From positions 1-53,161 of the IMG/VR virus record IMGVR_UViG_3300042545_001591: a stretch of 53,161 bases of DNA. One strand, written 5' to 3'. This document shows, one piece after another, positions 23,213 through 40,509 of this stretch (position 1 is the first letter of the stretch; the number at the start of each line of letters is the position of its first letter). A model generated the notes under the pieces. The model ran no database searches and was not told the DNA's origin. It saw nothing but the letters and a program-made list of their open reading frames with translations. The stretch comes from a virus. The position numbers and the translations under genes are program-made.

Positions 23213-23237
23213 TTATGACCTCGATTAAACATTTCTA

Positions 23238-23924: not shown

Positions 23925-24693
23925 CTGTCAAATCTTTGCTTTGGGCTTCCGTCCATGTGAACTCGGTTTTTGGTTCCTCAAACACTTCGTGGTTAATAGT
24001 ATTTACTGGCGTGTCGTCAGTATTTTCCTCAAAGTCCAAACTCGTCGTGACAAAACAGCTAATTATCCACTTGTCCGAAGAATAAGGGACCAATCCCATG
24101 TGTGGGTGAGTCCAACTTGTAGGAAACAAAACAATTTTACCGATTTCCGCATCGACAGAACAATCATGAATTCTAAAACTTGTCCCCCCGCCATCGGTAA
24201 CGGTATTTAGGTAGACGACGACAGCTAAAACTCTTGTGTGGTTTTTGCCGTTTTCGTCCGGCCTTGGATAGTCCCATGGTAAACCGTCGACATGCTCTCT
24301 ATAGAAACCGTCATTTTTAAAGTACCTCTGAATTCTTAATCCAGTAATGTCCAGATTCGGGACAGACCAGAATTGTGGAAACATTTGGATGTAATCATTT
24401 ATGCACGACCATATGCGCGCATAGAGGTACTCACTGACTGCCGCATACTGGTGGTAATACTTGGTGGAATCAACCGTGTATATATTTGGGTCCATCAACC
24501 CAGTGTCCATACAGCGTTTAATGCCTGTATTCACGCCACCTATAGTCGGCCCCTGAGTAAAAAAGCCAACGTTTAAAAAATCTTCCAAAAGGTTAGACAC
24601 TAAAGATTCACATCTTTCTGCATCTAGAGCCTCCTTGTATTCGGCTATATATGAATATTTTCCAAGAGGAAAAGATGCTTTGGTTAATCCCAT
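23908..24693 (-). CDS. 2OG-Fe(II) oxygenase, prolyl 4-hydroxylase-like
   Basis: From ATG 24693 (preceded by AAAGGAAC; a TTG at 24729 is rejected) this encodes 261 aa. LRIQRYFKNDGFYREHVDGL holds the HxD pair His134/Asp136. VVVYLNTVTDGGGTSFRI is the conserved strand, and GKIVLFPTSWTHPHMG holds the distal His (most likely His198), with Lys208 (SDKWIISCFV) for the 2-oxoglutarate carboxylate. This is the P4H-type jelly roll. The family hydroxylates peptidyl proline or lysine, or small molecules. It lies between the dUTPase-like gene and the GT-A gene, which would fit hydroxylation followed by glycosylation. Copy B has no counterpart. Confidence 0.88.
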   Translation of the reverse strand: MGLTKASFPLGKYSYIAEYKEALDAERCESLVSNLLEDFLNVGFFTQGPTIGGVNTGIKRCMDTGLMDPNIYTVDSTKYYHQYAAVSEYLYARIWSCINDYIQMFPQFWSVPNLDITGLRIQRYFKNDGFYREHVDGLPWDYPRPDENGKNHTRVLAVVVYLNTVTDGGGTSFRIHDCSVDAEIGKIVLFPTSWTHPHMGLVPYSSDKWIISCFVTTSLDFEENTDDTPVNTINHEVFEEPKTEFTWTEAQSKDLTDDSEQ

Positions 24694-25463
24694 TTGCGTT
24701 GTTCCTTTCTGTATTTGCCCCTGCGCCAACTAGGGAGAAGAGGAATTGGTCCACCAAAACCTCTTTCGTAAATAAGCTTAAATACGTTCTCGTCACCAAC
24801 GTGCATTTTTGAAACATTATCAGAACGTTTAAAAAAAGTCATTTGGGCAATAGGGGTCCCCTGAGGAATGTAGAACTCTTTGTCCGTCAACACGTTTAAA
24901 ATTATATTGACCGTATGGTAATAATCCGTGTTTATTACTCCCGGGATTACGTCAAACTCGGGCCTTGGATTAAGAAGCGAACCAGTCAGAATGCTTGAAT
25001 ATCCTTTTGGCGTCATAAAGCAAAACGGATTCCCAAGCTTTATGTATTGCCCTTCGCCAACAGATGGGTTTCTTCTTTCCGTAAACGGACAGTCCCCTGT
25101 TTGTTTTCTTTCAAAATGCTGTATTGAGCCCATAATTTTTATGTTTTTTCTGTCGACATTAAACTCAGACTGAATGTCAATACCATTGGGATGAGGCCTT
25201 ACTCGTAGGTCGGCCCACAATGGGATGGTCACACCGTTATGCATCAGGTCTTGTCCGCCAGGGCAATACCTATAACCGTCCTCTAGAGGGGTTTTGGTCG
25301 TCCAGTCGTCTTTGGAGAACTTGTTCATGTAGGGCATAATATCTTCATCGCCTAACAACCTATTGTCTTCTGCGGTTATTAATATTTCCCCTGGCTTCAA
25401 CTTGGGTAACTGGTTTACCCTGGATACGCCATCTAGATAAACAACATTTTTAGAAGATTTCAT
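24684..25463 (-). CDS. Cassette protein with dUTPase-like motifs (copy A), function unknown
   Basis: A 259-aa protein from ATG 25463 (a TTG at 25481 is an alternative). It is homologous to 34655-35449: both have KPG...NR near the start, a Cys followed by GVTIP.W (here NGVTIPLWADLRVR), GDCP/GECP, NP..F.T...S and FKR. Residues 174-183 (PGVINTDYYH) and 202-207 (GTPIAQ) look like dUTPase motif 3 (G-I-D-x-D-Y-R-G) and the later G-x-x-IAQ strand. The catalytic Asp is replaced by Asn, so a dUTPase reaction is unlikely. It sits next to a halogenase in both cassettes, so a partner or substrate-binding role is my inference. Its stop overlaps the oxygenase start. Confidence 0.7.
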   Translation of the reverse strand: MKSSKNVVYLDGVSRVNQLPKLKPGEILITAEDNRLLGDEDIMPYMNKFSKDDWTTKTPLEDGYRYCPGGQDLMHNGVTIPLWADLRVRPHPNGIDIQSEFNVDRKNIKIMGSIQHFERKQTGDCPFTERRNPSVGEGQYIKLGNPFCFMTPKGYSSILTGSLLNPRPEFDVIPGVINTDYYHTVNIILNVLTDKEFYIPQGTPIAQMTFFKRSDNVSKMHVGDENVFKLIYERGFGGPIPLLPSWRRGKYRKEQRKWD

Positions 25464-26886
25464 GGTGGTATACGGTTTCAAGGTTCATGTTTGATTGTCT
25501 TATTTCGGAGAGACTAGATGAAGCATAGTGCCGATTCTGATAATAATCAAGAGACCGAGAACATGATTCCTTTGTTATCAAACCCTGCCCTTGCGCCACA
25601 TGCCAGAAGTGCGCTATCTGAAAAAGTTCATATCCACTCTGAGGGACGTCATTGGTGGAAGGGGGCCTTTCTGACCACAACTCTAAGAGCTCGGAAAGCA
25701 AAGGGGACCTTGGGGCACTTGCTGCGTCTTTCCAGAAACTGGTATCCCTTCTGTCCGATATGTAATGCATGCTCACCATGGCTATGAGGTTCTCGTGAAA
25801 ACTTTCCATAATCGAATTGTACTTTCGGGAAAGAGACGTAGAGCCGGGTTTGAAAAATGGAATAAAACTAGATAGCGCCTTAGCCTGCTGAATTGCCGTA
25901 GAAATACTCGTAGCCTCAAGTGGCTCCATAAAAGAACTGCTCAACCCAATGGCAACACAGTTGTTTACCCACTGCTTACTGGTGTACCCAGGATTAAACT
26001 TTATAACTCTTGGCTTATCGAGAACATGACCAGTGACTTGTTCTATCTCTTTTATTGCTTGCTCTTCGTCTAGATGACCAGATGAGAAGACGTAACCATT
26101 CCCACGTCTTTCCTGGGTAGGAATCTCCCACATCCAACCAGACGACATGGCGATAGCCCTGGTGTACTGCCTTATCAGACCGTTCGGGTCAGGTTTTGTC
26201 GGGAAAGGTATAGCCGTATCCGTAAGTAAATATCGTGATGCATCCACCCATTTGGCTTCGTCAAAATTCTTAATTAGGAACTTTGAAAACCCCGAAGCGT
26301 CTATCCAGAAATCAGAATAATATGTTTCTGAATTTGACGCAACCGACTGTATGTACCCGGTTTCATCAATCAAAGAAGAGACTAAGTCATCTATGAAAAT
26401 CTTTATATTTTTCCTGGAACAAATTTTTTGAAGATAATGATTCAGCTTAAATGTGTCAAAATGATATTGATTTGTGTTTCTATGGATATGTTCTGATTTG
26501 ACTACTTTTGTTTCAATAAACCCAGGATGAGTTATTGTGTTGGTGAGCAGCTTGCCTTGCTCATGAATGTATTCATACAGAGGTATGTTTTCATTTTTAA
26601 TAAAATAACCACTAATACTGTGAAAATAATCAGGAGTGTGATTGGTCCATTTCTCAAACCGAATACCAAGTTTGTGCGTAGCGGCAGTTTCCCTGACCAT
26701 CTCATCAATGTCTATTCCTGCTATTTCAACAAAGCTATGCCAATGCTCCGTACTACCTTCGCCAACTCCAATTATGCCAATAGTTTTTGACTCAATAATT
26801 GAAACGTCAAGCAAGGGAAGCTTGCTTTTTAGAACTATCGCCGCAACAAGACCAGCAGTCCCTGCCCCTACAACCATAACCTTCAT
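25450..26886 (-). CDS. Flavin-dependent halogenase (tryptophan halogenase family), copy A
   Basis: A 478-aa enzyme. VVGAGTAG (5-12) is the FAD GxGxxG; GVGEGSTEHW (40-49) is typical; Lys72 in THKLGIRFEKW aligns with the catalytic Lys (PrnA Lys79) that carries the hypohalous intermediate. GWMWEIP (250-256) is the family WxWxIP motif, and SSFMEPLEATSI (318-329) holds the conserved active-site Glu. The enzyme needs reduced FAD, O2 and halide; no flavin reductase is seen here, so the host would supply FADH2. It is slightly shorter than the usual ~510-540 aa. A viral member, VirX1 of a marine cyanophage, has been shown to halogenate small aromatics with preference for iodide. The substrate here is unknown. 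Confidence 0.93.
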   Translation of the reverse strand: MKVMVVGAGTAGLVAAIVLKSKLPLLDVSIIESKTIGIIGVGEGSTEHWHSFVEIAGIDIDEMVRETAATHKLGIRFEKWTNHTPDYFHSISGYFIKNENIPLYEYIHEQGKLLTNTITHPGFIETKVVKSEHIHRNTNQYHFDTFKLNHYLQKICSRKNIKIFIDDLVSSLIDETGYIQSVASNSETYYSDFWIDASGFSKFLIKNFDEAKWVDASRYLLTDTAIPFPTKPDPNGLIRQYTRAIAMSSGWMWEIPTQERRGNGYVFSSGHLDEEQAIKEIEQVTGHVLDKPRVIKFNPGYTSKQWVNNCVAIGLSSSFMEPLEATSISTAIQQAKALSSFIPFFKPGSTSLSRKYNSIMESFHENLIAMVSMHYISDRRDTSFWKDAASAPRSPLLSELLELWSERPPSTNDVPQSGYELFQIAHFWHVAQGQGLITKESCSRSLDYYQNRHYASSSLSEIRQSNMNLETVYHHEIF

Positions 26887-26889
26887 GAG

Positions 26890-27516
26890 CTACCTAAGCC
26901 ATGTTACGAAGGCATACTTGATGCCAAAATTGTTTTCCTCTACGGGGTGAGCTGTATGTCTATACAAATAGTTTGACGGAAACAAAACCATAGAACCAGC
27001 AGAGGGAGAAACCTTTATGCCGAAATAATCAAACTCCAATTCGCCTCCGTTGAAGTCGTCATTAAACCACCCGACACAGCTAAGAATGCGACCATTTTCC
27101 GAGCCGTAATCACAATGAGAACTGTATTCTCCACCGCTTGGGTATTTTAATACTCTGTATCCTTCGTCGGTAGACAGCTCAAGGCTGTACTTATCACGAT
27201 AATGATAAACCGCTGCGTCTATGTTCTTGAATATTTTTTTCCAGAGTACTGCTGCCGGTTTCATTCTTGGAATATTTTCTATTTTGTTAGCTTGCAGGGG
27301 GTTCAACTCCATTTGTACAGACATTCTGTACGATGAAATTTTACCGTTGTCAGTTTCTGAATTTTCCCACATCAAGTATGGCCAGTCTTCTTTTGACTCA
27401 GATTCAATAAGTTCTATGATGTTTTCAGGTGAAAATATGTTTTTGTACATAATTACGCCAGGGGCCAACTCTACTATTTCTGAGCTTTCTATAATTTCGT
27501 TAACAGACATCATCAT
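26890..27516 (-). CDS. 2OG-Fe(II) oxygenase of the cassette, copy A
   Basis: A 208-aa protein. KYPSGGEYSSHCDYG gives the HxD pair His134/Asp136; GGELEF (158-162 region) is the strand typical of this family; SMVLFPSNYLYRHTAHPVEE gives the distal His190, and Lys200 follows for 2-oxoglutarate. It therefore has a complete iron site. Copy B (36963-37544) has the same motifs and length class, and both sit directly upstream of a halogenase. Three ATGs in a row mark the start; it overlaps the upstream 147-aa gene by 17 bases. The substrate is unknown; peptidyl hydroxylation of the co-encoded adhesin is a hypothesis. Confidence 0.87.
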   Translation of the reverse strand: MMMSVNEIIESSEIVELAPGVIMYKNIFSPENIIELIESESKEDWPYLMWENSETDNGKISSYRMSVQMELNPLQANKIENIPRMKPAAVLWKKIFKNIDAAVYHYRDKYSLELSTDEGYRVLKYPSGGEYSSHCDYGSENGRILSCVGWFNDDFNGGELEFDYFGIKVSPSAGSMVLFPSNYLYRHTAHPVEENNFGIKYAFVTWLR

Positions 27517-27943
27517 TTACCGTAAAATCAAAAGTGTGAATAATCTTATCTTTATACCAAACGCAAATAGCACAATCTCCCGGCGCACCAAAATTAAGCC
27601 CAAAATGAATAGAATGCCTATTTATTTTTTTTACATCTAGAAATCTGTGCCCATTTGGCTCTCCCACAATGTAGAGAAAAAGACTAATTTTTACATCATC
27701 ATCAAATACGAGAAATTCGTTTTTGTAATCAATCCGAATTAATTGATTTACCTTGACAGGAGAATGAGAAAACTTTATTGAATGCTCTGTTGGGATAGAA
27801 ATCGGACGAGGGGTGTCTCTGTCAAAAATCAAATCTTTGGTTCTCTCGTTGTCGCCGATAAGTATGGGGGCGACGTGGAGTCTAGATAATTCCTCTGCTG
27901 TGGGAAGCATTTCTTCTGTTGGACAAAAAATTACTGTATCCAT
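27500..27943 (-). CDS. Unknown cassette protein (copy A, ~147 aa)
   Basis: From ATG 27943 (a TTG at 27955 is possible) this encodes 147 aa. I do not recognise a family. The N-terminus is short and polar (MDTVIFCPTEEMLPTAEELS); the rest alternates beta-type segments (QLIRIDYKNEFLVFDDDVKI, LFLYIVGEPNGHRFLD, IHFGLNFGAPGDCAICVWY, KIIHTFDFTVND). It holds the same slot as the 138-aa protein of copy B (37541-37957), which has a similar beta-rich look and SLRF/SIHF-like and WKY/WYK-like segments, but identity is too low for me to claim homology. It could be a small jelly-roll or chaperone for the neighbouring oxygenase. Confidence 0.6.
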   Translation of the reverse strand: MDTVIFCPTEEMLPTAEELSRLHVAPILIGDNERTKDLIFDRDTPRPISIPTEHSIKFSHSPVKVNQLIRIDYKNEFLVFDDDVKISLFLYIVGEPNGHRFLDVKKINRHSIHFGLNFGAPGDCAICVWYKDKIIHTFDFTVNDDVC

Positions 27944-27969
27944 AAATAGACACAATAGCAGTTAATTCT

Positions 27970-28218
27970 TTATTCCGCCTGAAGTCGAGCAAGGCTGGCC
28001 CGTGTAGTCTTTATTCCTACAACCAACATTCGGAAATGAGTTGAATACATATAAGACTCGCCGTCTTCAGGAACTTCAAAAGTATCCATGTCTACGGTGA
28101 GAGGGTCTATCCCTGACTGTATGCAAGTTGTGAAAAAATTAGAGTACGCGGTCTCTAGCGCTTTGGTAAGGAGATTTACTGTTTCTTCTGTCGTTATTTC
28201 GTCTCTTAGTTCTGGCAT
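27970..28218 (-). CDS. Unknown small helical cassette protein (copy A)
   Basis: An 82-aa protein with a good ribosome site (GAGGAAAA) before its ATG. It is largely helical (TVNLLTKALETAYSNFFTTC, TRASLARLQAE) with GIDPLTVDMDTFEVPEDGES in the middle. The 75-aa protein of copy B (37954-38181) has the same pattern: helix, NVDPETFDEEVGF, helix ending in L...KVKITEL. Both follow a long Gly-rich adhesin, so an adhesin-specific assembly factor is possible (inference). Confidence 0.6.
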   Translation of the reverse strand: MPELRDEITTEETVNLLTKALETAYSNFFTTCIQSGIDPLTVDMDTFEVPEDGESYMYSTHFRMLVVGIKTTRASLARLQAE

Positions 28219-28227
28219 TTTTCCTCT

Positions 28228-30357
28228 TTAAGCGTTAATTATTATTTTTGTACTAGAAGACAAGGATTGAGTAAGCCCCCATGAATCAGTAACAACAATT
28301 ATACCGCCTTCTAGGCCGGTAGAACCAGCGTTACCCATGGTCCCCGCTAGACCATTGGTGCCAGCATTGGGTGCTCCATTGGTTCCGGGGTTCCCAGGGT
28401 TGCCTGCACCACCAACCGTTCCTGCGTTACCGGCAGCTCCAGGATTTCCTGCTGCGCCTCCGTGTCCAGTTCCGTTATTCCCATGATTACCTGCTACGCC
28501 GGCGTTGCCGGCAGTTCCATGGTTCCCTGCTGTTCCTGCTGCGCCGTTATGCCCATGACCATTTGTACCAGAATTACCGGCTGCGCCACCATAACTGGTC
28601 GCAACAGCATTCTGCCCGTAGTGGGTGTTATGGTTATGCCCTGCACCGTGTCCGTTGAATTCATTATGTCCTAAACCTATGAAAAAGTGGTTGACGTTTG
28701 CTGGGTTTGCGCCACGAGGCCATGTTCTGTTTGCGGGTGCACCAGTATAGTGAAAAGCATGTTCGGTCGAGTTTCTCCATGAATGTCTAGGAAAATGTGC
28801 ACTGTTTGATTCGTTAGCAGGGCGACCACCGGAACCACCAAATGTTCTCATATGACTATAACCTGAGACATGGAACGCATGGGCGTTGGAAGCAGCATTG
28901 GGGTTTCCTGCCTGCGAGACATACTGGTAATAAGTGTCATTTACTCCCGCATTGCCAGCTGCACCTGCAGTGGCCCCAGTTCCGTTAGCGGCCCCCGTTC
29001 CTGCTGTTCCATTTGTTCCTGCGTTGGCTACTCCAGGGTTTGCTCCGCCTGCGGTGGCACCGCTTCCGCCGTGGCCTCCAGTTCCTACGTTTCCGGGGTT
29101 TCCTGCATTGCCTGGGACGAGAGTTCCCACAACTCCGGCCCCACCGGACGTAGCACCAGTCCCTGCAATCCCAGGATTACCTGACGCACCTGCAGTTCCA
29201 TGAGAACCAACCCCGCCAGGTTGTCCAACATTAACAACAGAGCCAGAGCCAGAAATATATTTAGCCACAATCAAAACAACGGGTCCTCCTCTTCCTCCCG
29301 TGCCACTTACTCCAGGGTTTCCTGCGTTGCCTGCGGCTCCAACAGTTCCAGCGTTGCCCGCTAAACCTGCCGCACCAAAATGTCCTGCGTTGGGCGCACC
29401 ACTGTTTCCTGGGTTACCTGCATTGCCTGCGTTTCCTGCCGTACCGGCATTTCCTGCTGCACCCGCGTGTCCAGTTCCGCCATGTCCTGTTCCGTTGGTT
29501 CCTGGATTGCCATGGTTTCCTGCAGTGCCTGCGTTCCCTGCTGCACCATTGTTGCCGTGGTTTCCGGCGTGCCCATAACCATAAAGACCATAAGAATTGT
29601 GTGTGTTGCCGTGGTTCGAACCAGACGGAATGTGTATTCCACCAGCAGTAGCTCCCGTTCCTGCCGCTCCTGGGTTGGCCCCACCAGCACCTCCTGCGGT
29701 AGCTCCACTTCCTCCGTGCCCACCAGTACCGTTACTGCCACCTGTTCCTGGGTTTCCTGCATTTGCTACTCCAGCTCCTCCAGCACCACCAAGGTTTGCT
29801 CCAGTTCCAGCAATTCCAGGATTGCCTCCCGTGCCAGGATTTCCTGCAACCCCTGGAACTAGGGTTCCTGGATTTCCTAGCGTGCCACTGGTTGCACCAC
29901 TTCCATCTGCACCCTTGTCGCCACCAGAAAGCACACGAATCGAACCAGCATTATCTACAAAATAACCACGAATTGATTTTTCCAAATCATTCAGTGTTGC
30001 CAGGTCGATTGGATTAGCTGAAGTCTGACTCAAGCTGTAAGTAACAATAGAAGCAGCCCCACCAGCCACTGTTCCTGACGGGATTAAGGACGTATGCGAA
30101 AGAGTGGCTCCGATGGTTCCGTTGTTGGTTAAGGTCCCTTTAACAAAGACTCGAAAGCCGTTTGTGATTACAGTGCAACCGCTGTTGACCGTTAGGTTTT
30201 CGTAGTACATGTCTCTGGACAAAACAGTTGGAGTTCCAGTGTTTGAAACAATTACAGTTCCGTCTGTCCCTTGTCCATACACAGAGTCGTTTCCAAGTCT
30301 CTGTGTGTACTCTTTAGATTCCGTACCAGGTCTAAACCTGACAACTCCAATTCCCAT
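28228..30357 (-). CDS. Long glycine-rich adhesin (cassette copy A)
   Basis: A 709-aa protein. The N-terminal ~110 residues (RLGNDSVYGQGTDGTVIVSN, DMYYENLTVNSGCTVITNGF, RVFVKGTLTNNGTIG) form a beta domain shared with three other proteins here. From about 145 to 690 the chain is mostly Gly-X-Y-like repeats rich in Asn, Thr, Ala and Pro (GNPGTGGNPGIAG, GNAGTAGNAGNAGNPG), interrupted at about 365-375 by GGPVVLIVAKYISG and at about 470-585 by a Tyr/Trp/His-rich insert (YYQYVSQAG, HFPRHSWRNSTEHAFHY). Such chains may fold as polyglycine-II bundles, as in the S16 gp38 adhesin, or as collagen. GNPG units place Pro before Gly, the site class of collagen prolyl hydroxylases. It is a likely receptor binder. 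Confidence 0.8.
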   Translation of the reverse strand: MGIGVVRFRPGTESKEYTQRLGNDSVYGQGTDGTVIVSNTGTPTVLSRDMYYENLTVNSGCTVITNGFRVFVKGTLTNNGTIGATLSHTSLIPSGTVAGGAASIVTYSLSQTSANPIDLATLNDLEKSIRGYFVDNAGSIRVLSGGDKGADGSGATSGTLGNPGTLVPGVAGNPGTGGNPGIAGTGANLGGAGGAGVANAGNPGTGGSNGTGGHGGSGATAGGAGGANPGAAGTGATAGGIHIPSGSNHGNTHNSYGLYGYGHAGNHGNNGAAGNAGTAGNHGNPGTNGTGHGGTGHAGAAGNAGTAGNAGNAGNPGNSGAPNAGHFGAAGLAGNAGTVGAAGNAGNPGVSGTGGRGGPVVLIVAKYISGSGSVVNVGQPGGVGSHGTAGASGNPGIAGTGATSGGAGVVGTLVPGNAGNPGNVGTGGHGGSGATAGGANPGVANAGTNGTAGTGAANGTGATAGAAGNAGVNDTYYQYVSQAGNPNAASNAHAFHVSGYSHMRTFGGSGGRPANESNSAHFPRHSWRNSTEHAFHYTGAPANRTWPRGANPANVNHFFIGLGHNEFNGHGAGHNHNTHYGQNAVATSYGGAAGNSGTNGHGHNGAAGTAGNHGTAGNAGVAGNHGNNGTGHGGAAGNPGAAGNAGTVGGAGNPGNPGTNGAPNAGTNGLAGTMGNAGSTGLEGGIIVVTDSWGLTQSLSSSTKIIINA
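28330..29905 (-). repeat. Glycine-rich triplet repeat region of adhesin A
   Basis: Degenerate 9-base units encode Gly-Asn-Ala/Pro, Gly-Thr-Ala and Gly-His-Gly through most of the gene. The reverse strand reads as Pro/Ala/Val-rich frames that are artefacts. The unit sequence varies in third codon positions, but short exact repeats occur, so length change by recombination is likely. Confidence 0.8.
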
Positions 30358-30359
30358 TG

Positions 30360-31094
30360 TTATACCAACTGCATGTAGTTATAAGTACCAGTATTCGCTC
30401 CGGTTACATCTGTAGAGACATTGCTCGGCAAGGAAGAACCGCTAGAAATAACAAGAATTACTCCGCCGCCGCCAGGAGAGGTTGCTGGTGCCGCAATTTT
30501 AGCATTCACGGATACTGCTGTAGAAACAATGTAGCGAGCAGCGATTATTACTACTCCTCCGCCTGCCTGCCCTGTTCCGCCTGCTCCACCGCGAAGAAAA
30601 GTTGGTCCACCAGACGCTGTAATCGAATATCCGCGAATTGCTTGAATTGGCTGTTTGTAGTACTCAACCCCACCCATGGCGGCAGTTGGTGGCGTAGCGG
30701 TGTAAGTAGCCAAAGCGTTCCCGCCGAGACTATGGGTTACTGAAGTAGCAGCGGCTCCGCCTTGCTCTATGGAGCCTGCAGTCGAAAACCCAGTCGTGTA
30801 ACCGATTACTGAAGCCTCGCCAAGACTTAGCTGTCCCTTTACCAATATCCTGTAACCAGCCGGGTCTAGACGAATAGACGTATCGATAGATAATGAATCA
30901 AGAAACAAGTCTCTGGTCATTGTAAAAACAGAAGAAGAATAAGTTAACCCAAGAGAAGCAGAGTACGTTCCTCCACTCCCAGACGTTGTTGACAGAACTG
31001 CAGCACCATCGGCCCCTGTTCCGTAAATGGAATCAGGAGCGTCAATGAAAGCCGAGAAGGCCGTCAACACTGGATATCTTGATACTCCGGCCAT
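30360..31094 (-). CDS. Virion beta protein with Gly-rich end (copy A, paralogue of 39802-40509)
   Basis: A 244-aa protein with close similarity over its whole length to the 235-aa protein of copy B: MAGV.RYP at the start, D.IYGTGADGAAVL, TRDLFLDSLSIDTSIRLDP, GYRILVKGQLSLG, SLGG, the shared ASGGPTFLRGGAGGTGQAGG / VIIAARYI segment, and the identical end YMQLV. The N-terminal domain also matches that of the long adhesin encoded next to it, so the two genes look like an internal duplication with and without the long Gly-rich region. It probably forms a short companion fibre or a platform for the long one. Confidence 0.7.
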   Translation of the reverse strand: MAGVSRYPVLTAFSAFIDAPDSIYGTGADGAAVLSTTSGSGGTYSASLGLTYSSSVFTMTRDLFLDSLSIDTSIRLDPAGYRILVKGQLSLGEASVIGYTTGFSTAGSIEQGGAAATSVTHSLGGNALATYTATPPTAAMGGVEYYKQPIQAIRGYSITASGGPTFLRGGAGGTGQAGGGVVIIAARYIVSTAVSVNAKIAAPATSPGGGGVILVISSGSSLPSNVSTDVTGANTGTYNYMQLV

Positions 31095-31096
31095 GA

Positions 31097-31432
31097 CTAA
31101 AGGGTGTAGCCGTTTACCGTTACCGTAATAGCGGCATTCTCACTGACAAAATAAATAATGTCGTCTAGGGCTAGAGAAGTGTTCGTGTTGTAAGTAATCG
31201 TCTCTTTAGGGGAAACGCTCATTTGTGACAAGATTCTTTGCGCAGCAACATCGCTGGATACGGTATTAGCGGCGACACCTACTGTTATCCAGTATGCGGT
31301 ACTTGCGCTTGTGTTGCAGATGATTATCTGCTTTACTACTCCGGCAGCCGTGGCTGTATAGGCACCTGTAGCCCCAGAACTAAAAGTTGTAACGGTGGCC
31401 TTGGGACCGAACCGATAAGGAACTACTGACAT
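31097..31432 (-). CDS. Small beta-sandwich virion protein (copy A)
   Basis: A 111-aa protein (TGAYTATAAGVVKQIIICNT, AYWITVGVAA, MSVSPKETITYNTNTSLALD, AAITVTVNGYTL). The pattern T...vkqIiicNt...t....g, then ...e.it.n....l, then vtvnG is shared with the 124-aa protein of copy B and the 101-aa protein at 43887-44192. This type of small beta protein is common in phage structural regions and may decorate fibres or virion surfaces; a function is not proven. Confidence 0.65.
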   Translation of the reverse strand: MSVVPYRFGPKATVTTFSSGATGAYTATAAGVVKQIIICNTSASTAYWITVGVAANTVSSDVAAQRILSQMSVSPKETITYNTNTSLALDDIIYFVSENAAITVTVNGYTL

Positions 31433-31672
31433 TTAGATGACCTCCATGAGAAATATTACTTCAGTATCGTCTGCACGCACGTTAGTCGGGCCACTTGCTC
31501 CGGGGACTCCAGACGAACCTACAGGACCAGTTGGGCCTGAAGGACCTTCAGGGCCCTGGGTCCCACCAATCCCAACATTGAGTGCCCACTTGCCGTCCGT
31601 GTACGACCAGGTTTTGCCGTCAACTGTAAAGTTGTCACCGGGAGCAGGGGAGTTGGGAAAATCGATAGCCAT
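31433..31672 (-). CDS. Short DFPNSP-tag fibre protein with collagen segment (copy A)
   Basis: A 79-aa protein from ATG 31672. A longer frame to 31738 is rejected because [15 protein letters not shown] matches the start of the 338-aa fibre and a TATAAT box lies 7 bases before this ATG. The N-terminal tag (DFPNSPAPG, then GKTWSYTDGKWAL) is followed by a collagen piece (GTQGPEGPSGPTGPVGSSG) and a short tail ending in MEVI. The 85-aa protein of copy B has the same tag and an end in MEVF, but no collagen segment. The tag is probably a docking domain. Confidence 0.7.
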   Translation of the reverse strand: MAIDFPNSPAPGDNFTVDGKTWSYTDGKWALNVGIGGTQGPEGPSGPTGPVGSSGVPGASGPTNVRADDTEVIFLMEVI

Positions 31673-31679
31673 GCCTGCA

Positions 31680-31700
31680 ATTATACCCTGAACTGATTGA
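31680..31700 (-). promoter_or_regulatory. Candidate leaderless promoter, copy 1 (TATAAT, 7 nt before ATG)
   Basis: On the minus strand the box TATAAT (complement of 31680-31685) lies exactly 7 bases before the ATG at 31672, so transcription would start at about the ATG. CAATCAGTTC followed by AGGG lies directly upstream of the box. The same block occurs before the 338-aa fibre gene. No Shine-Dalgarno is present in the 7 bases. Confidence 0.6.
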
Positions 31701-31763
31701 GGGGAACCATAAGAAACAAGGTGGCAATATAATGCCAATTGAAGAAATCAAAAACTATGGTCG

Positions 31764-32030
31764 TTACGCTTCCAACGCTGCTTTAGCAGCTAGGTATGCT
31801 GCTCTCTGCTCATTTTGGTCATACACGGGAGCGTCATAAGCATCTCCGTTGTCCTTTATTGCTTGAATGGTTTCTTCAGCCCATTGTTCAGCGTCTTCTT
31901 TTGTCCACGGCATCCAGTTGTGAGGGAAGTTAAATTGACTTATTGTGCGAGAAAAAGAAGAACCATTAATTTCCCCAGTCCATGTAATGGTTGCTTCATT
32001 TTTGTCGTTTACTTCATATGTGTATTCCAT
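31764..32030 (-). CDS. Small fibre-associated protein, unknown
   Basis: An 88-aa protein with ribosome site GGGAGAT before the ATG. Residues 1-35 are a beta hairpin region (YTYEVNDKNEATITWTGEIN), followed by FNFPHNWMPWTKEDAEQWAE and a helix ending AAYLAAKAALEA. Small proteins with a W.PW...DA..WA motif are found next to fibre genes in phages, where a chaperone or fibre-assembly role is often assumed. It follows the 338-aa fibre with a 9-base gap. Confidence 0.55.
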   Translation of the reverse strand: MEYTYEVNDKNEATITWTGEINGSSFSRTISQFNFPHNWMPWTKEDAEQWAEETIQAIKDNGDAYDAPVYDQNEQRAAYLAAKAALEA

Positions 32031-33532: not shown

Positions 33533-34651
33533 TTAGTTATAGGTCATATAAGAAAGAAGTGCTTTTTTTGCTGCTATTTCCTCGGCACCTGTTGGGCGCA
33601 CTGTTGGAATAAGTAAGTTTTCGGACTTCTCAATAAACTCAAAAATTTCTTCTGCCGTCGTATTGCTGCTGTCTATCTTAAAATCCAAACAAGTTTTATA
33701 TATAACGCCTTCTATTTTAGAATTCTCTACCGCTAAAACGTTTGAATCAATGGTTATATCCTGTGGGTAATTTGCAACGAGGGAATTCAGGGAAATATAG
33801 CGCAGTTTTTTTCTAAGCCAGTCAAGAAATAGTGGGCTTATGTCTATCTGTTCAATAAAGTCTTGCCTCGGGTTATCTGTTTCTAGGAGGTATCTGTAAA
33901 CCGGCATGTTTTCTTGATACTCGTTAATCTCGTCAATAACTTCTGGGGGCATTTTTATCGCCTCAAGATAACTCTTTGCATCAAGCGCTATTTCATCCGT
34001 AACGTTAAAAGGTTCTTCGGCCAAAGAAGCCCACTCGATTACTAGTTTCATGCAGCCCATAAAAGTCTTTGACATGCCAACCACGGCAGGCCAGTCTCTA
34101 TAGGAAGTTCCGATATCGGAAACCCGCATGTAGCTGACAGTAGATGTTCCAGCAACACTCAGCAAGCTTGCAACCCGTTTAATTGTGTTGTTGTTTATTT
34201 TATTTAGGTCAGCTATGAATGGTTTTATCCCATCTCCCACCGGATACGCCATCGCCATGAATAAATGTGTTTCGCACCTGTTCTTGTAGTCCCAATACGC
34301 ATTGACAAATTTTGACTCTACTTGCTGCTTCATTGACACTGAATTATAGAAAGAAAACGTATCACTTTCAAGATGACTGGACATAAATGCATATTCATAA
34401 AAATGCTCGTAAGGCATCCACTGGACGATTGATTCGCCCTCTTCGTTAACGAGAACATAATTGTAGTCAGTCTTTCCCAGGTCGAAATTACGAAAAGCAA
34501 TTATCTGGTAGTTATCTGCAATAAAGATGTCATATTCCGTATATTCAACATCTCCGTTTGGGTGTCTTATGTAAAGTTTGAAGTCGTCCAAGGATTCATG
34601 AACGTAGTAGCAACCATAAAGAGATGGGTCTATTTGAGACGTGTTATTCAC
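33533..34651 (-). CDS. Unknown 372-aa protein between the two cassettes
   Basis: The GTG start follows AAGGAAGT. The N-terminal ~110 residues are Tyr- and acid-rich beta-type sequence (YGCYYVHESLDDFKLYIRHP, YDIFIADNYQIIAFRNFD); the rest looks helical, with RCETHLFMAMAYPVGDG and NNNTIKRVASLLSVAGTSTV. I recognise no family and no catalytic motif. It has no counterpart in copy A, where the oxygenase and glycosyltransferase genes occupy the equivalent downstream position, so it may be the accessory gene of copy B (inference). It starts three bases beyond the dUTPase-like stop. Confidence 0.6.
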   Translation of the reverse strand: MNNTSQIDPSLYGCYYVHESLDDFKLYIRHPNGDVEYTEYDIFIADNYQIIAFRNFDLGKTDYNYVLVNEEGESIVQWMPYEHFYEYAFMSSHLESDTFSFYNSVSMKQQVESKFVNAYWDYKNRCETHLFMAMAYPVGDGIKPFIADLNKINNNTIKRVASLLSVAGTSTVSYMRVSDIGTSYRDWPAVVGMSKTFMGCMKLVIEWASLAEEPFNVTDEIALDAKSYLEAIKMPPEVIDEINEYQENMPVYRYLLETDNPRQDFIEQIDISPLFLDWLRKKLRYISLNSLVANYPQDITIDSNVLAVENSKIEGVIYKTCLDFKIDSSNTTAEEIFEFIEKSENLLIPTVRPTGAEEIAAKKALLSYMTYN

Positions 34652-34654
34652 TTT

Positions 34655-35449
34655 TTACTTCCTTTTGAGTATTTTTTTAATTATACCTTTTTGTTCAGAC
34701 TGCTTATCTAAAGCATTATCAACAATTACCCTATTGCGACGATAAGGACCAGCAGTCCCATCGCTTGGGGCAACGTGCCCTGTCCCAAACCCTGTTGTAG
34801 CAACGTATTTAAAGTAAGACTCGTCGTTGAAGATTATTTCCCCAAAGTCGGAGTTGCGCTTAAACGGAACTACCTGACACATCGGTGTTCCGTATTTTAT
34901 GGAAAACGGCCTATCACCAATAGGGTTAATAACCATGTTTGCTAAGTGGTAGAAATCCGTATGAACGATTGACGGAACGAGCGTGTAGTCCTCGTTTGGT
35001 TCCCAGTACGGTGGGAGAATCATCGACGACCAGCCTGGGGCTGTTTCAAAGCGCCACGGATTAATTATCTTTGGGTATTGGCCCGTTGCTACTTTTCTGA
35101 CAGCAGTCATTGGGCATTCACCGGTGGAGTGAGCAGAAAATCCTGATATTGAATTTATCCCAGCTTGTGGTGCAAAATCGTCCCCCGCCGTTTCCCATGT
35201 CTCGCCATTTGGGTCTAGACGGAATCTAAAATTTGTCCACATAGGAATAGTGACGCCAGCAGTAAGAAAATCTATTGTTCCAGCGCATTTGCGAATGGAG
35301 CCCTGATGCTTACCAATTTTCTTAAACCACATAGGAGGATTCTGTACTGTGTTAACAAATGGAGGCATCTCCATCAATCTGTTATCCATCGGTGTGAATC
35401 TTATTTGTCCAGGTTTTACTGGCGGCATCTTGGTCATTATTGGTTCCAT
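34655..35449 (-). CDS. Cassette protein with dUTPase-like motifs (copy B), function unknown
   Basis: A 264-aa homologue of 24684-25463. Shared blocks are VKPGQIRFTPMDNRL, CAGTIDFLTAGVTIPMW, GECPMT, INPWRFETAPGWSSM, and VPSIVHTDFYHLANMVINP. The last aligns with dUTPase motif 3 but has His where the catalytic Asp should be; YGTPMCQVVPFKR aligns with the later G..IAQ strand. Loss of that Asp in both copies, in different ways, argues for a binding or scaffold role. The ATG overlaps the halogenase end by 13 bases; an internal ATG at 35434 is an alternative start. The constant halogenase neighbour is the main clue to its job. Confidence 0.7.
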   Translation of the reverse strand: MEPIMTKMPPVKPGQIRFTPMDNRLMEMPPFVNTVQNPPMWFKKIGKHQGSIRKCAGTIDFLTAGVTIPMWTNFRFRLDPNGETWETAGDDFAPQAGINSISGFSAHSTGECPMTAVRKVATGQYPKIINPWRFETAPGWSSMILPPYWEPNEDYTLVPSIVHTDFYHLANMVINPIGDRPFSIKYGTPMCQVVPFKRNSDFGEIIFNDESYFKYVATTGFGTGHVAPSDGTAGPYRRNRVIVDNALDKQSEQKGIIKKILKRK

Positions 35450-36945
35450 TCTTTGTCAATCAACACAATTTCCCGCAAAGCAGTAGCGTGGTCGACTTGT
35501 TCGCCACTATTCCGATTTGCTTTGTATTCTGCAATTTTTTTCTCAACGCTTTGCCGTATCCCAAGCCTATTGAGGGCAGTGGTGGCCGCATCTGGATTGA
35601 TGGCGTTTTGACCTTGAGCAACATGCCACAAGTGTGCCGACAAAAACATCTCGCCGTTTAATGCACTAAAATCAAATCTGGTTGGTGGACGCTCCGCCCA
35701 TAACTCAATCATCTCCTGCAATTCTTCATTGAGTGGCGTTACTGACATTTCCCGCCAAAATGGAGTGTCCTGCCTATCCGAATAATAATGGAGACGAACC
35801 ATCGTAAGAATATTGCGCATCATTATTTTCATGCTGGCGTTAAAGTGTTTCTGAGATGCTGTGTGCCCAGGTTGATACGAAGCAAGATAGGGGACAATTT
35901 GTTTTACTTGCTGAATTGTTGAACCTATGCTAGAGGCCTCTAATGGCTCCACAAAAGAAGAAGCCAGCCCGATTGCACAACAGTTCTTTACCCATGTGTT
36001 CTTTAGATAGCCCGCGTCAAAATTAATAACACGATGGGCTTCAATCTTGTAGCCGGACATCTCTTCGGCTTCACGTACCGCTTCTTCTTCGGTTATAAAT
36101 TTAGACGAAAATACGTATCCGTTTCCACGCCGTTCTTGAGTGGGGAGTTCCCAGAGCCACCCGGAAGAGGCAGCACGAGCACGTGTGTAGGGACGAATTC
36201 TTCCGTTGGGGTCAGATTCCGTAGGAAACGCAATTGCCGTATCGCACAAAAGATGGTCACTGAAAGAAGACCAATCATCTGCCCCAAGTTTTTTCATCAA
36301 TATTCTGCTAAAGCCACTAGCGTCAAACCAAAAGTCTGACGCAATGGTTTCATTTGATTTGGTTACTACGGATAGTATATTTCCGTTTTCGCTATCAAGA
36401 TTAATAGAATCTACTTCTGCCTCAATAAACTCAATCTGTCTCTTGAACGCCAGAGTAATTAGATAATTATTTAGCTTATGCGTATCAAAATGGTATTGAT
36501 TTGTAGACCGGTGCATTCCCGCTTTGCTGATTTTGTCTTTTACCAATGCAACGTTCGTAATCTGTGGGGTCAAAAGCTTCCCCTCTTCCAGATATTGCAT
36601 ATAAGTTGCGTGTGCTCCAAAAGCATAAATATCATCTACGTCACCTACGCTATGAAAATAGTCAGGATTTTTTGTTGTCCAGTTTTCAAATCTAATTCCG
36701 TACTTATGCGTACCAGCTGTCTCGACAAGCATTTCTTCAATAGGGATGTCACATAGGTCAGCAAACTGACGCCAGTGTTCCGTGCTTCCCTCACCTACAC
36801 CAATAATCCCAATTTTTGAAGACGAGATAACTTTTATCCCAGCTATGGGAAAGGCTTTGCGCAAAATTAAAGAAGCAAGCAGTCCTGCTGTTCCAGACCC
36901 GACGATGGTAATAATAAATGGTTTTTTTTCTTGTTTGTAATCCAT
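35437..36945 (-). CDS. Flavin-dependent halogenase (tryptophan halogenase family), copy B
   Basis: A 502-aa enzyme homologous to copy A. IVGSGTAG (14-21) binds FAD; GVGEGSTEHW (49-58) and THKYGIRFENW (79-89) match copy A with catalytic Lys81. The WxWxIP motif appears as GWLWELP (262-268), with Leu for Ile. CAIGLASSFVEPLEASSI holds the active-site Glu. All key residues are therefore kept in both copies. The N-terminus is longer by nine residues. Identity between copies is clearly partial, so the duplication is not recent, or the copies came in separately. Substrate may differ between copies, matching the different adhesins. Confidence 0.93.
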   Translation of the reverse strand: MDYKQEKKPFIITIVGSGTAGLLASLILRKAFPIAGIKVISSSKIGIIGVGEGSTEHWRQFADLCDIPIEEMLVETAGTHKYGIRFENWTTKNPDYFHSVGDVDDIYAFGAHATYMQYLEEGKLLTPQITNVALVKDKISKAGMHRSTNQYHFDTHKLNNYLITLAFKRQIEFIEAEVDSINLDSENGNILSVVTKSNETIASDFWFDASGFSRILMKKLGADDWSSFSDHLLCDTAIAFPTESDPNGRIRPYTRARAASSGWLWELPTQERRGNGYVFSSKFITEEEAVREAEEMSGYKIEAHRVINFDAGYLKNTWVKNCCAIGLASSFVEPLEASSIGSTIQQVKQIVPYLASYQPGHTASQKHFNASMKIMMRNILTMVRLHYYSDRQDTPFWREMSVTPLNEELQEMIELWAERPPTRFDFSALNGEMFLSAHLWHVAQGQNAINPDAATTALNRLGIRQSVEKKIAEYKANRNSGEQVDHATALREIVLIDKEWNQ

Positions 36946-36962
36946 AACTGAATCTTACTCTA

Positions 36963-37544
36963 CTAGCAAAACCATGTCACTAGAGAGTGCTTAACGCCTT
37001 CAAGGACGGGATGGGCAACATGCAAGTAGGGGAAATTTGAAGGAAACATAAGAACCGAACCTGTTTTCAGCTTGACGGTCACATCAAAGGTGGGAAACTC
37101 TAATTCTCCGCCACTTTCGGCTTCCCCAAGGGATGCGACAATACTAAAAACACGCCTATTGTCTCTCCAGTGGTCATAGTGAGCACGATATTCTCCTCCT
37201 TGGTAGTATTTGAGGATTGCAAATTCTTCAGGGATGGCGTCCTCTATCATGAATTCTTGACGGTAATCTTCGGCGACCGCCATGCAGGGTAAAAAAATGT
37301 TTTTTTGGTAGAAATCAGATAATTCAGTTTTTTCATACGGAGGGAGCAAAGACGTAAGAACACAATTAATAGAAGTTCTAGTATCGGTCGTTGACCCTGC
37401 TCCGGTTTTACCGTAGTCCCATTCGAGGCCGGACCACTCGTTCGCAGTTTCTTCTTCTACTTTAGCTAAGAACTCAATCGCTACTGATTCAGGGAACACG
37501 TCTTCATACAGGGATACGCACGGTGCTATTTTTGTATTTTTCAT
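36963..37544 (-). CDS. 2OG-Fe(II) oxygenase of the cassette, copy B
   Basis: A 193-aa protein. LKYYQGGEYRAHYDHWRDNR contains His122/Asp124; SGGELEFPTFDV is the family strand; SVLMFPSNFPYLHVAHPV contains distal His178, and Lys185 (EGVKHSLVTW) follows for 2-oxoglutarate. The C-terminal half aligns well with copy A; the N-terminal half is divergent, which may reflect a different substrate. Its ATG overlaps the upstream stop as ATGA, so it is coupled to the 138-aa protein. The halogenase follows after 17 bases. Confidence 0.87.
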   Translation of the reverse strand: MKNTKIAPCVSLYEDVFPESVAIEFLAKVEEETANEWSGLEWDYGKTGAGSTTDTRTSINCVLTSLLPPYEKTELSDFYQKNIFLPCMAVAEDYRQEFMIEDAIPEEFAILKYYQGGEYRAHYDHWRDNRRVFSIVASLGEAESGGELEFPTFDVTVKLKTGSVLMFPSNFPYLHVAHPVLEGVKHSLVTWFC

Positions 37545-37957
37545 ATAACCCTAAATTCCCCAGAACAATAGTCTTCTGTTTCAGAAACAGTAATTTTATA
37601 CTTCCAATTTCCCAGACTAACGTATCTTGAACGAAAACGCAAGCTATGAACCTGACGAACGGAAGGTTTTGTAATTACCGTTTCCCCGGTTTCTGAAGTA
37701 GCAATCAATCGAGCATCGCGTCCAAAAAAAACAAATTCGTCTGTCAGGTCAATGCAGAAAACGTATCCAGACTCAACGGTAGGCGGTATTTCTACCACTT
37801 TTTTGTATGGGACACTAACGATGCAAATATCTGTGTATTTGTTGTCTTCCCCAACCTGTATGGACAGCATTGTTTTTTTTGCCAACTCTATGGCCTTTAA
37901 GGGGATTTCATTGTTTTCTAAAAGTAGGGCTACTGGTACATGAATAAACCTTTTCAC
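37541..37957 (-). CDS. Unknown cassette protein (copy B, 138 aa)
   Basis: The GTG start overlaps the upstream stop (GTGA). The sequence starts KRFIHVPVALLLENNEIPLK, followed by beta-type segments (GYVFCIDLTDEFVFFGRDAR, HSLRFRSRYVSLGNWKYKIT). No family is recognised. It occupies the same slot as the 147-aa protein of copy A between the ~80-aa protein and the oxygenase. Tight coupling on both sides suggests that it works with the oxygenase, perhaps as substrate adaptor (inference). Confidence 0.6.
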   Translation of the reverse strand: MKRFIHVPVALLLENNEIPLKAIELAKKTMLSIQVGEDNKYTDICIVSVPYKKVVEIPPTVESGYVFCIDLTDEFVFFGRDARLIATSETGETVITKPSVRQVHSLRFRSRYVSLGNWKYKITVSETEDYCSGEFRVI

Positions 37958-38181
37958 GACAGTTCGGTAATTTTTACTTTTACCCGATTGAGAGCATTAA
38001 CTAACTCTTGGATACGAATGTACTCACCAGTGAAATTTGTTCCAGTAAAGCCAACTTCTTCATCAAAAGTTTCTGGGTCAACATTCAAACGAACAAGAAG
38101 CGTATACAGCTCTTTTTCTATTCCGGATTTTGAACTTTGACAAAGTTCAATTTTTTCTGCTTGCGTTAAGTTGAATTCCAT
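37954..38181 (-). CDS. Unknown small helical cassette protein (copy B)
   Basis: A 75-aa protein (FNLTQAEKIELCQSSKSGIE, LYTLLVRLNVDPETFDEEVG, IQELVNALNRVKVKITELS). Two helices flank a DPETF segment that resembles GIDPLTVDMDTF in the 82-aa protein of copy A. GGAGAAATC lies before its ATG. It directly follows the His-rich adhesin gene, so an assembly factor for that adhesin is plausible but not shown. Confidence 0.6.
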   Translation of the reverse strand: MEFNLTQAEKIELCQSSKSGIEKELYTLLVRLNVDPETFDEEVGFTGTNFTGEYIRIQELVNALNRVKVKITELS

Positions 38182-38189
38182 GATTTCTC

Positions 38190-39800
38190 CTACGAATTAA
38201 TTAATACGTACGCTGCACCCGCGGAGGCAACATAGTTGTCTGAGTCGACCGTTAGTCCTGCGCGAGTATCGTAAGTGATTGTGTTTGCTATTGAGTCCGT
38301 GACGATAAGGATAGCACCGCCGCCACCGGCCCCACCACGTTTTCCATTTGGACCAGCAATCGCTGGCCCTCCTGCTCCTCCTGCCCCTCCTGCTCCGCCT
38401 GGATATACTGTTGGCGCAACATGTGTTGAAACGCTATTGGGGTGATGAGAATGTCTTGCGGTAGTCCCTGAGGGTCCTGCATAAAAAACGGCCCCAACGC
38501 CAACTCCGTTATTGTGATGAGGGTGGTTATTGCCAAAGTGAATATGGTTGTCACTCCCTCCGGCATTACCTATCCAATCCATGTGGTGATTATGACCCGT
38601 GGTCGCGCCGTGTGAATGGCCACCATGGCTGTTTGGTTTTTGATGATAGTGAGGAAATGGATAATGATGAGTTATCTGAAAATAAGCGTGCCACCAGTGC
38701 GGTTCCCAGTGGTGTGCTCCACCGTGGGGTCCATCGTTGTGGGGGGAATGGTGATGGCCATTGTGGTGGTGATGAGGGGTCGCGTGGTGATGCGGGGTTC
38801 CTCTATGAAAGTGGTGAGGGGTCGAGTGGGCACCATGAGCCCCATGCTTGGCGTCGGTAAGGGCATGAACATGCTCTTGAACGTTTTCGTGTTGCTGGAC
38901 GTGCTGCCGAACGCCATGCTTATGCATGTTTGAGTGATTAGTGTAATAGTGATGATGGTCAGGGTTATGGGTTGCGGGATGCGCAACGTTAACGTTCGGA
39001 TTGGGGTGTGAGTAAGCAGGGGCGGGTGTTCCCGTACCACCCGCAGTACCCGCAGTACCTGCGCCACCCGCCGTTCCTGCGACACCCGACATTCCCAGTG
39101 AAATTATTTTCCCTGTTCCTACAACCGTTTTAGCTACTACACAAACAACTGCTCCACCTGCTCCGCCAATTCCACTGACTCCGGAAGTTCCAGGCGTCCC
39201 AGCATTTCCAGTTCCACCAGTCCCCCCTCTGCCTCCGACTGCACCAACAGTGTGTGCGTTTGGAGCGTACGAACCAGCCGCTCCTGCTGTGCCTGGACTT
39301 CCTGGAGACGGTGCGGCTCCTGCGGTTGGAGCACCAGCAGTACCTCCAACTCCTCCACCTATGTTTTGAAAACCTGACGGGGTTGGAACTAAGCCACCAG
39401 CCATCGCATCGATTGACTTAAATAAATACAGCGGGAGCGGATTGCCGCCTGGGTTTGTTCCGCCTCCGCCCACTCCACCAGCGTTGTAGGTAATAGGAAC
39501 GGTGTTTGTTCCCACAGTAGTTTTAGTTGTTACTGCGGTCGGCTCTCCAACTACACCTGCAGTAACAGAACCGGAACCAATATAGCCATTTAGCGTTAGT
39601 GTGTTTTTAACAAAAACTCTGTAGCCGTTTGTCTTTAACAAAACTCCCGAGTTTACAGTGAGGTTGTTGTAGTACATATCGCTCGTTATGGAAGTATCTG
39701 ACGAAACAGTAACGTTTCCATCAGTACCCTGACCATAGATGTCGTCGTTACCTAGTCTTTGCGAAAAGCTTTGAGTCCTAAACTTCTCTATGCCAGCCAT
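38190..39800 (-). CDS. Histidine- and glycine-rich adhesin (cassette copy B)
   Basis: A 536-aa protein. The N-terminal ~75 residues (RLGNDDIYGQGTDGNVTVSS, DMYYNNLTVNSGVLLKTNGY, RVFVKNTLTLNGYIG) match copy A. A Gly-rich region follows to about 260. Residues about 265-431 carry about 50 His (HHHYYTNHSNMHKHG, TPHHHATPHHHHNGHHHSPH, HHWEPHWWHAYF), then a Gly-rich C-terminus with GGGAILIVTDS as in copy A. Many HxH pairs could bind iron, zinc or nickel, as known for the HxH irons of the T4 gp37 tip. Three Trp in the His-rich region and one near 408 are candidate halogenase targets (inference). It has no signal peptide. Confidence 0.8.
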   Translation of the reverse strand: MAGIEKFRTQSFSQRLGNDDIYGQGTDGNVTVSSDTSITSDMYYNNLTVNSGVLLKTNGYRVFVKNTLTLNGYIGSGSVTAGVVGEPTAVTTKTTVGTNTVPITYNAGGVGGGGTNPGGNPLPLYLFKSIDAMAGGLVPTPSGFQNIGGGVGGTAGAPTAGAAPSPGSPGTAGAAGSYAPNAHTVGAVGGRGGTGGTGNAGTPGTSGVSGIGGAGGAVVCVVAKTVVGTGKIISLGMSGVAGTAGGAGTAGTAGGTGTPAPAYSHPNPNVNVAHPATHNPDHHHYYTNHSNMHKHGVRQHVQQHENVQEHVHALTDAKHGAHGAHSTPHHFHRGTPHHHATPHHHHNGHHHSPHNDGPHGGAHHWEPHWWHAYFQITHHYPFPHYHQKPNSHGGHSHGATTGHNHHMDWIGNAGGSDNHIHFGNNHPHHNNGVGVGAVFYAGPSGTTARHSHHPNSVSTHVAPTVYPGGAGGAGGAGGPAIAGPNGKRGGAGGGGAILIVTDSIANTITYDTRAGLTVDSDNYVASAGAAYVLINS

Positions 39801-39801
39801 T

Positions 39802-40509
39802 TTAAACCAACTGCATGTAATTTACAGTGCCAGGATTCTGTCCAGTTACATCTGTTGTGACGTTTGCAGGAAGACCGGCTGCCGACGAAACCACAAGGAC
39901 AACTCCCCCGCCAGCAGGGGCAGTTGCTTTTGCTGAAATCTCGGCCGTGCCGCTTAGTGGACCCGAGATATACCTTGCGGCGACTATTACTATTCCGCCA
40001 CCTTTTTGTCCAGCGCCACCGGCTCCACCACGAAGATATGTTGGGCCACCCGAAGCAGTAAGAGAATATCCTAGAACCGCATTTCTTGGTTGCTGGAAAT
40101 ACTTAGCTCCTCCCAAGGAGTCTAATGGGGCAGTTGCCGTATAGCCAGTTGCTGAACCACCAAGAGAATGAGCAACAGCCAAGGAAGCTACCTGTCCCTG
40201 GAGTATTGAGCCACTGTCCGAATACCCAGTTATGTATCCAATACGGGAAGATGTTCCTAGTGTGAGTATGTTTTTGACAAACAAACGATATCCGTTTGGT
40301 TTTAAATGAATGTTGTCATTAATCGTTAGGTTGAACAGATACAAGTCCGCAACCATGGAATAAACGTTTGATGCCGGAATCATCCCCAAAACAGTGGATG
40401 AGCCATTAAGGGTCGCTGAACCATCAGCCCCAGAACCGTAAACAGAATCGGCAGCATCAATGAATTGCCCAAAAGCATTCAAGGCTGGATAGCGGGCCAC
40501 GCCAGCCAT
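39802..40509 (-). CDS. Virion beta protein with Gly-rich end (copy B, paralogue of 30360-31094)
   Basis: A 235-aa protein closely similar to the copy A protein: MAGVARYPALNAFGQFIDAA, DSVYGSGADGSATLNG, DLYLFNLTINDNIHLKPNGY, ASGGPTYLRGGAGGAGQKGG, IVIVAARYISG and the end NYMQLV. This is the best-conserved pair of the two cassettes, which fits a structural base that must dock to the same virion site. It ends one base before the His-rich adhesin, whose N-terminal domain is a divergent copy of its own. Confidence 0.7.
   Translation of the reverse strand: MAGVARYPALNAFGQFIDAADSVYGSGADGSATLNGSSTVLGMIPASNVYSMVADLYLFNLTINDNIHLKPNGYRLFVKNILTLGTSSRIGYITGYSDSGSILQGQVASLAVAHSLGGSATGYTATAPLDSLGGAKYFQQPRNAVLGYSLTASGGPTYLRGGAGGAGQKGGGIVIVAARYISGPLSGTAEISAKATAPAGGGVVLVVSSAAGLPANVTTDVTGQNPGTVNYMQLV

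Follow-up and report, generated by a model that had tools for sequence, protein, structure and literature searches.

Neither the flavin-dependent halogenase family considered here nor its presence in viruses is new, a described viral member being VirX1 of Syn10 (PDB 6QGM), and variants of the WxWxIP motif of these enzymes are on record (PMC8407142). Cyanophages have long been known to carry halogenases, one survey counting them in 20 of 153 genomes (PMC10452541), and a 2010 review lists prnA twice in a cyanomyovirus (PMC2984593). At the Syn10 locus, tandem halogenases are followed by a relative of phrog_7084 downstream of structural genes, an order that resembles the one described below. In S-RIM44, too, a phrog_7084 relative comes after the tandem halogenases, which have a large structural gene on one side and the neck genes on the other; the Sf-CH11 halogenase occupies the corresponding place, among 2OG-Fe(II) oxygenase (2OG) genes. 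Here we analyzed a window of 53,161 nucleotides, the whole stretch of IMG/VR virus record IMGVR_UViG_3300042545_001591, in which two halogenases, A and B, each sit in an operon with a putative tail adhesin.

Halogenase B (35437..36945, minus strand; 502 aa) is encoded by an ORF with an ATG start and no internal stops. Residues 12–449 match PF04820 (Trp_halogenase) at 1e-100 with 338 bits, against a curated cut-off of 21, and the protein matches PHROG 2928 (“tryptophan halogenase”) at 3e-102. In a 29-sequence family alignment the GxGxxG FAD-binding Rossmann motif is intact (GSGTAG, residues 16–21), and Lys81 and Glu336, aligned to RebH and corresponding to PrnA K79 and E346, are invariant across all 29 sequences; the initial annotation had likewise read the catalytic Lys and Glu as kept. 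It had also correctly recorded a Leu in the WxWxIP motif, which reads WLWELP (residues 263–268) with both Trp and the Pro retained and Ile replaced by Leu at position 267. This position is Ile in the other rows of the alignment. Of 152 viral halogenase sequences, 140 have Ile here, Leu is confined to copies from this phage itself, and others have Val or Ser; the Syn10 halogenase has WVWNVP. We found no support for treating the Leu as informative: it is a conservative I-to-L singleton, and we rejected it as a functional marker. The region of the Fx.Px.Sx.G tunnel motif reads FVEPLEASSIG, with the F, the P and the later S and G present; the residue after EPLE is Ala, not Ser, and Ala is usual at this point in the viral group and in some bacterial enzymes. 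The N-terminus does carry a lead of about nine residues (MDYKQEKKPF) ahead of the Rossmann strand, as had been remarked, but this feature is not unique, the 69% identical relative L241 aligning from residue 1.

The predicted model of halogenase B (pLDDT 90.5) has a full-length tryptophan-halogenase fold and aligns with PyrH at Z 43.7 over 478 residues with an rmsd of 2.2 Å. Profile alignment stops at the C-terminal substrate lid for RebH, PrnA, PyrH, Thal and SttH and continues in BrvH, Xcc4156 and the L11 enzyme, while structural alignment spans the lid. Halogenase B is an intact member of the known PF04820 family and could add halogens.

The two halogenases lie in parallel minus-strand blocks, cassettes A and B, with a common gene order. 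In cassette B, a 264-aa phrog_7084 protein with a dUTPase fold (34655..35449) has a start that overlaps the halogenase stop by 13 bases, and a 2OG oxygenase (PF13640; 36963..37544) adjoins the halogenase on the other side. There follow two small proteins of no known family, u1 (138 aa; 37541..37957) and u2 (75 aa; 37954..38181), the Gly/His-rich putative tail adhesin B (536 aa, 55 of them His; 38190..39800), and a short Gly-rich protein upstream of it (39802..40509) that has its N-terminal domain in common with adhesin B. Cassette A comprises a phrog_7084 protein (24684..25481; PF00692 dUTPase, 1e-6), halogenase A (25450..26886; 478 aa; PF04820, 9e-99), a 2OG oxygenase (26890..27516), u1 (27500..27955), u2 (27970..28218), a Gly-rich putative tail adhesin (28228..30357; 709 aa) and the upstream short Gly-rich protein (30360..31094), all on the minus strand. 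Identity between A and B is 57% for the short Gly-rich proteins, 33% for the 2OG oxygenases, 47% for the halogenases (over 478 columns) and 34% for the phrog_7084 proteins; the adhesins are 57% identical over 81 N-terminal residues, and the correspondence of u1 and u2 comes from profile matching. Beside cassette B lies a gene (33533..34651, minus strand) for a 372-aa protein without a known family; it turns up next to the cassettes of many phages, in several different positions, but cassette A has no counterpart. Further along the window, 41143-43887 encodes a virion structural protein of 914 aa (phrog_5838, 2e-272), for which the closely related contigs G024 and G029 gave no match.

The Gly-rich proteins are assigned an adhesin role from context, namely their Gly-rich composition, their place inside the structural region and, for copy A, tail-fibre PHROG matches; adhesin B has no Pfam family, and comparison of the adhesin N-terminal domain with solved structures gave no convincing relative. 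Full-length adhesin relatives are also His-rich, and the short Gly-rich paralogue has few His. The adhesins contain many His and Tyr and few Trp, from one upward in the full-length proteins. A search of the adhesins for a conserved Trp or other single target residue found none, which counts against the adhesin as a substrate.

To evaluate the linkage, loci were fetched by their halogenase and scanned with profiles built from the cassette genes, and those counted had at least 44% identity to A or B and enough flank, copies at 90% identity or above having been removed. Among the 54 complete, non-redundant relatives that resulted, the adhesin is present in 51, a 2OG oxygenase in 51 and a phrog_7084 protein in 52. 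In the reverse direction, 78 loci were newly scanned from the nearest 80 of 427 relatives of the adhesin N-terminal domain; these loci are not all independent, in that several come from near-identical contigs. A halogenase is found in 59 of these 78 and in all 59 that are informative; the other 19 lie on contigs that end no more than 1.6 kb after the long adhesin, and are therefore no counter-examples. The linkage is kept where the enzyme block is inverted (L272, L340) or relocated upstream of the adhesin (L072, L293, L309). It is thus reciprocal, near-obligate and resistant to rearrangement. Three halogenases without the adhesin, in L035 and L285 (full flank) and L007 (a short contig), still follow genes for tail-fibre or Gly_rich_2 proteins, in most cases with a 2OG-type gene alongside. 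In the T4-like cyanophages Syn10, S-RIM44 and Sf-CH11, halogenases accompanied by 2OG oxygenases or phrog_7084 are situated between tail-fibre and neck genes; like the three exceptions, these loci favour a link to host-binding structures. Distant viral halogenases mostly lack the adhesin (present in 3 of 15, with a 2OG gene in 11 of 15), a further point against the adhesin as substrate.

We propose that halogenase B is one enzyme of a cassette for the maturation of a tail adhesin, and that each halogenase modifies its partner adhesin, a reading to which we give an even chance of being right. From a single operon, a Gly/His-rich host-binding adhesin would be made along with three other proteins: a halogenase, a dUTPase-fold protein and a 2OG-Fe(II) oxygenase. 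As virions assemble, the oxygenase would hydroxylate exposed side chains of the partner adhesin, and the halogenase, using reduced FAD supplied by the host, would halogenate exposed adhesin side chains, the likely sites being aromatic Tyr, Trp or His. The host is presumed to provide the reduced flavin because Pfam recognised no flavin reductase among the cassette proteins. Such modification may tune or protect host binding, with the phrog_7084 protein as an accessory scaffold. What is observed is the gene content, the intact catalytic residues, the predicted fold, the linkage, the island and the phylogeny. That the adhesin is the substrate is inferred from linkage; which residue and halide would be involved, what phrog_7084 would do and how binding would change belong equally to the proposal.

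The near-obligate linkage also bears on other readings. The halogenase could be an auxiliary metabolic gene that acts on a free small molecule (tryptophan, indole or some metabolite of the host), perhaps to protect against antibiotics, and lies beside the adhesin by late-gene clustering, which we consider distinctly unlikely. Most characterised enzymes of the tryptophan-halogenase fold do act on small molecules, and in P-SSM2, S-SCSM2R and HTVC008M the halogenase is not beside recognised fibre genes, an observation that counts both for a metabolic role and against the adhesin as substrate. In vitro, VirX1 also acts on numerous small aromatic compounds (PMC8407142), and antibiotic protection has been proposed, as speculation, for the cyanophage prnA (PMC2984593). 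A role on free metabolites nevertheless fits less well with a reciprocal tie to one adhesin type that survives inversions and relocation, with the one-to-one multiplication of halogenases and adhesins, and with a profile alignment that ends before the substrate lid in free-Trp halogenases and continues in Xcc4156, BrvH and the L11 enzyme.

A surface role directed at some other target, whether the host receptor, host glycans or collagen-like fibres, would have the same cassette modify a different surface or virion component. Collagen-like proteins and glycosyltransferase genes do flank cassettes, and prolyl-hydroxylase-type 2OG oxygenases would suit collagen-like repeats. We nevertheless think this unlikely, as a glycosyltransferase of the family is near the cassette at only some loci, whereas the adhesin is the constant partner. 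Very unlikely, in our judgment, is the absence of any functional tie, with adhesin and enzymes travelling as one recombination module and the enzymes as passengers. Recombination is often concentrated at phage adhesin loci, and cassette A lies on a discrete island, both of which fit such a module; passengers, however, should often be lost or replaced, whereas halogenase, 2OG oxygenase and phrog_7084 occur in about 95% of deeply diverged loci, and the catalytic residues are kept in them.

On the maturation reading, the phage would have two cassettes because the second adhesin came with its own matched enzymes, B being resident and A being carried on an island. The initial annotation had suggested that the two copies could match different adhesins, which we find a good reading in that each halogenase sits with its own adhesin. 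It had also held that near-identical copies would mark a recent neutral duplication and had proposed a phylogeny of both. The copies are not such a duplication: identity is 47%, and sisterhood of A and B is rejected by the AU test for the halogenase (p=0.0035), phrog_7084 (p=0.0004) and the 2OG oxygenase (p=0.04). For the adhesin N-terminal domain alone it is not rejected (AU p=0.18). The difference between the two copies is ancient. The cassette halogenases form two clades, which differ in a loop near the substrate site in the 29-sequence alignment; B falls within clade II (99/97), and the careful tree places A with clade I (97/96), whereas a quick tree that had fewer outgroups left its position unresolved. 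The label “divergent”, initially given to B, fits A better, the best relative of B being 69% identical and that of A, outside its own phage, 50%. The tree also hinted at a recombination breakpoint separating the short Gly-rich gene from the adhesin, but the AU test did not support it (p=0.24). A recent bacterial origin of the halogenase is also unsupported, with cellular relatives at 27–36% identity. Two close “bacterial” matches, in an Actinomycetota MAG (L112) and a Gammaproteobacteria MAG (L113), both hold the phage cassette; they are probably phage contigs within MAGs, and at most a weak hint of the host.

The nearest contigs by tail sheath, G024 and G029 (87–88%), each carry one B-type cassette, with halogenases 65% and 60% identical, respectively, and no A cassette. 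An island of about 8.5 kb (23213..31763, ends approximate) contains all of cassette A and is missing from both; it is delimited by G029, where a glycosyltransferase gene is directly followed by the counterpart of the window gene at 31764. The island also carries an extra 2OG-Fe(II) oxygenase (23908..24729, minus strand) and a glycosyltransferase-like phrog_1574 gene (23238-23924). Gain of A is likelier than its loss from both relatives. We read B as resident and ordinary and A as divergent and probably acquired, the opposite of the initial labelling.

Two halogenases in one phage, initially described as unexpected, have precedents in the tandem pairs of Syn10 and S-RIM44, in contigs with three to five copies and in the doubled prnA (PMC2984593), although most of the 89 viral contigs scanned have one. 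A second phage with two complete cassettes is G322 (L397 and L398, contig 3300021376_000077), whose halogenases are 52% identical. Each has its own adhesin pair, and the cassettes are on opposite strands, one with its enzyme block inverted relative to the adhesin. In G030 there is a second halogenase match that is distant and shorter. Distant viral halogenases occur in sets of two to five, mostly in tandem; L310, L311 and L318 have three to five halogenase genes, mostly tandem, with no Gly-rich adhesin of the cassette type nearby. In many gammaproteobacterial genomes (L121-L189), a pair of PF04820 genes recurs in a conserved layout, with the two about 3.4 kb apart.

The phrog_7084 protein is identified as a dUTPase-fold protein because the model of copy B (pLDDT 87) matches dUTPases in Foldseek (E 6e-5, probability 1.00, target TM 0.70), copy A matches PF00692, and its profile resembles in part that of DUF6065 (PF19541). 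This similarity extends over 71 columns (probability 80%, E 1.5e-5), and one intermediate bacterial sequence matches both families; the alignment is partial, however, and Pfam does not place phrog_7084 B in DUF6065. No halogenase was matched in the short DUF6065 loci that were sampled, and DUF6065 was absent from 15 halogenase-bearing genomes. Other phrog_7084 relatives are found at 7001-7507 of L207 and 8001-8603 of L206, in haloarchaeal tailed viruses and in cyanophage S-RIM4. Those of S-RIM4 and the haloarchaeal viruses are near ribonucleotide reductase, with no halogenase beside them, and the occurrence of phrog_7084 without halogenase also counts against the adhesin-substrate reading.

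The adhesin cassette and its doubling are not described in the limited set of literature searched. We know of no flavin-dependent halogenase that acts on folded virion proteins, which weighs against the proposal, nor, to our knowledge, has a virion protein halogenated by a viral enzyme been described before, so that such a case, if true, would be the first. What phage halogenases act on may thus be a protein of the phage itself, the one that binds the host. The fuller statement, that phages halogenate and hydroxylate their own receptor-binding adhesin by means of a dedicated, matched halogenase, and that two such pairs are possible in one phage, we hold tentatively, at a little under an even chance. 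If true, it would give viral halogenases a natural substrate, phages a new route to altering host binding, and a source of protein-acting halogenases. Since the linkage is reciprocal, resists rearrangement and is multiplied with the adhesin, the question of the target becomes directly testable on the adhesin.

Among known systems, VirX1 shares with halogenase B its nature as a viral flavin-dependent halogenase, but the halogenase of its source locus in Syn10 is only 26% identical to B, and EPLES(N/T)G stands where B has EPLEASS; VirX1 is also a poorer structural match than PyrH (Z 36.4 vs 43.7). No adhesin-u2-u1 block of the cassette type was found at the Syn10 locus. In another quick tree, the Syn10 and S-RIM44 halogenases form a separate, fully supported clade, so that B does not belong to a VirX1-like cluster; it groups with the adhesin-cassette halogenases, with P-SSM2 and S-SCSM2R as the next relatives. 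PyrH, RebH, PrnA, BrvH and Xcc4156 share with B the full fold, the catalytic Lys and Glu, the GxGxxG motif and a motif near WxWxIP, at 24–29% identity; halogenase B lies in a phage adhesin operon and not in a natural-product cluster. The lanthipeptide tryptophan 5-halogenase MibH (5UAO) differs from B in its ribosomal peptide antibiotic substrate and in its lack of an adhesin or phage context, and is 25% identical; it has the same fold (Z 38.9) and provides a precedent for the halogenation of a Trp inside a peptide.
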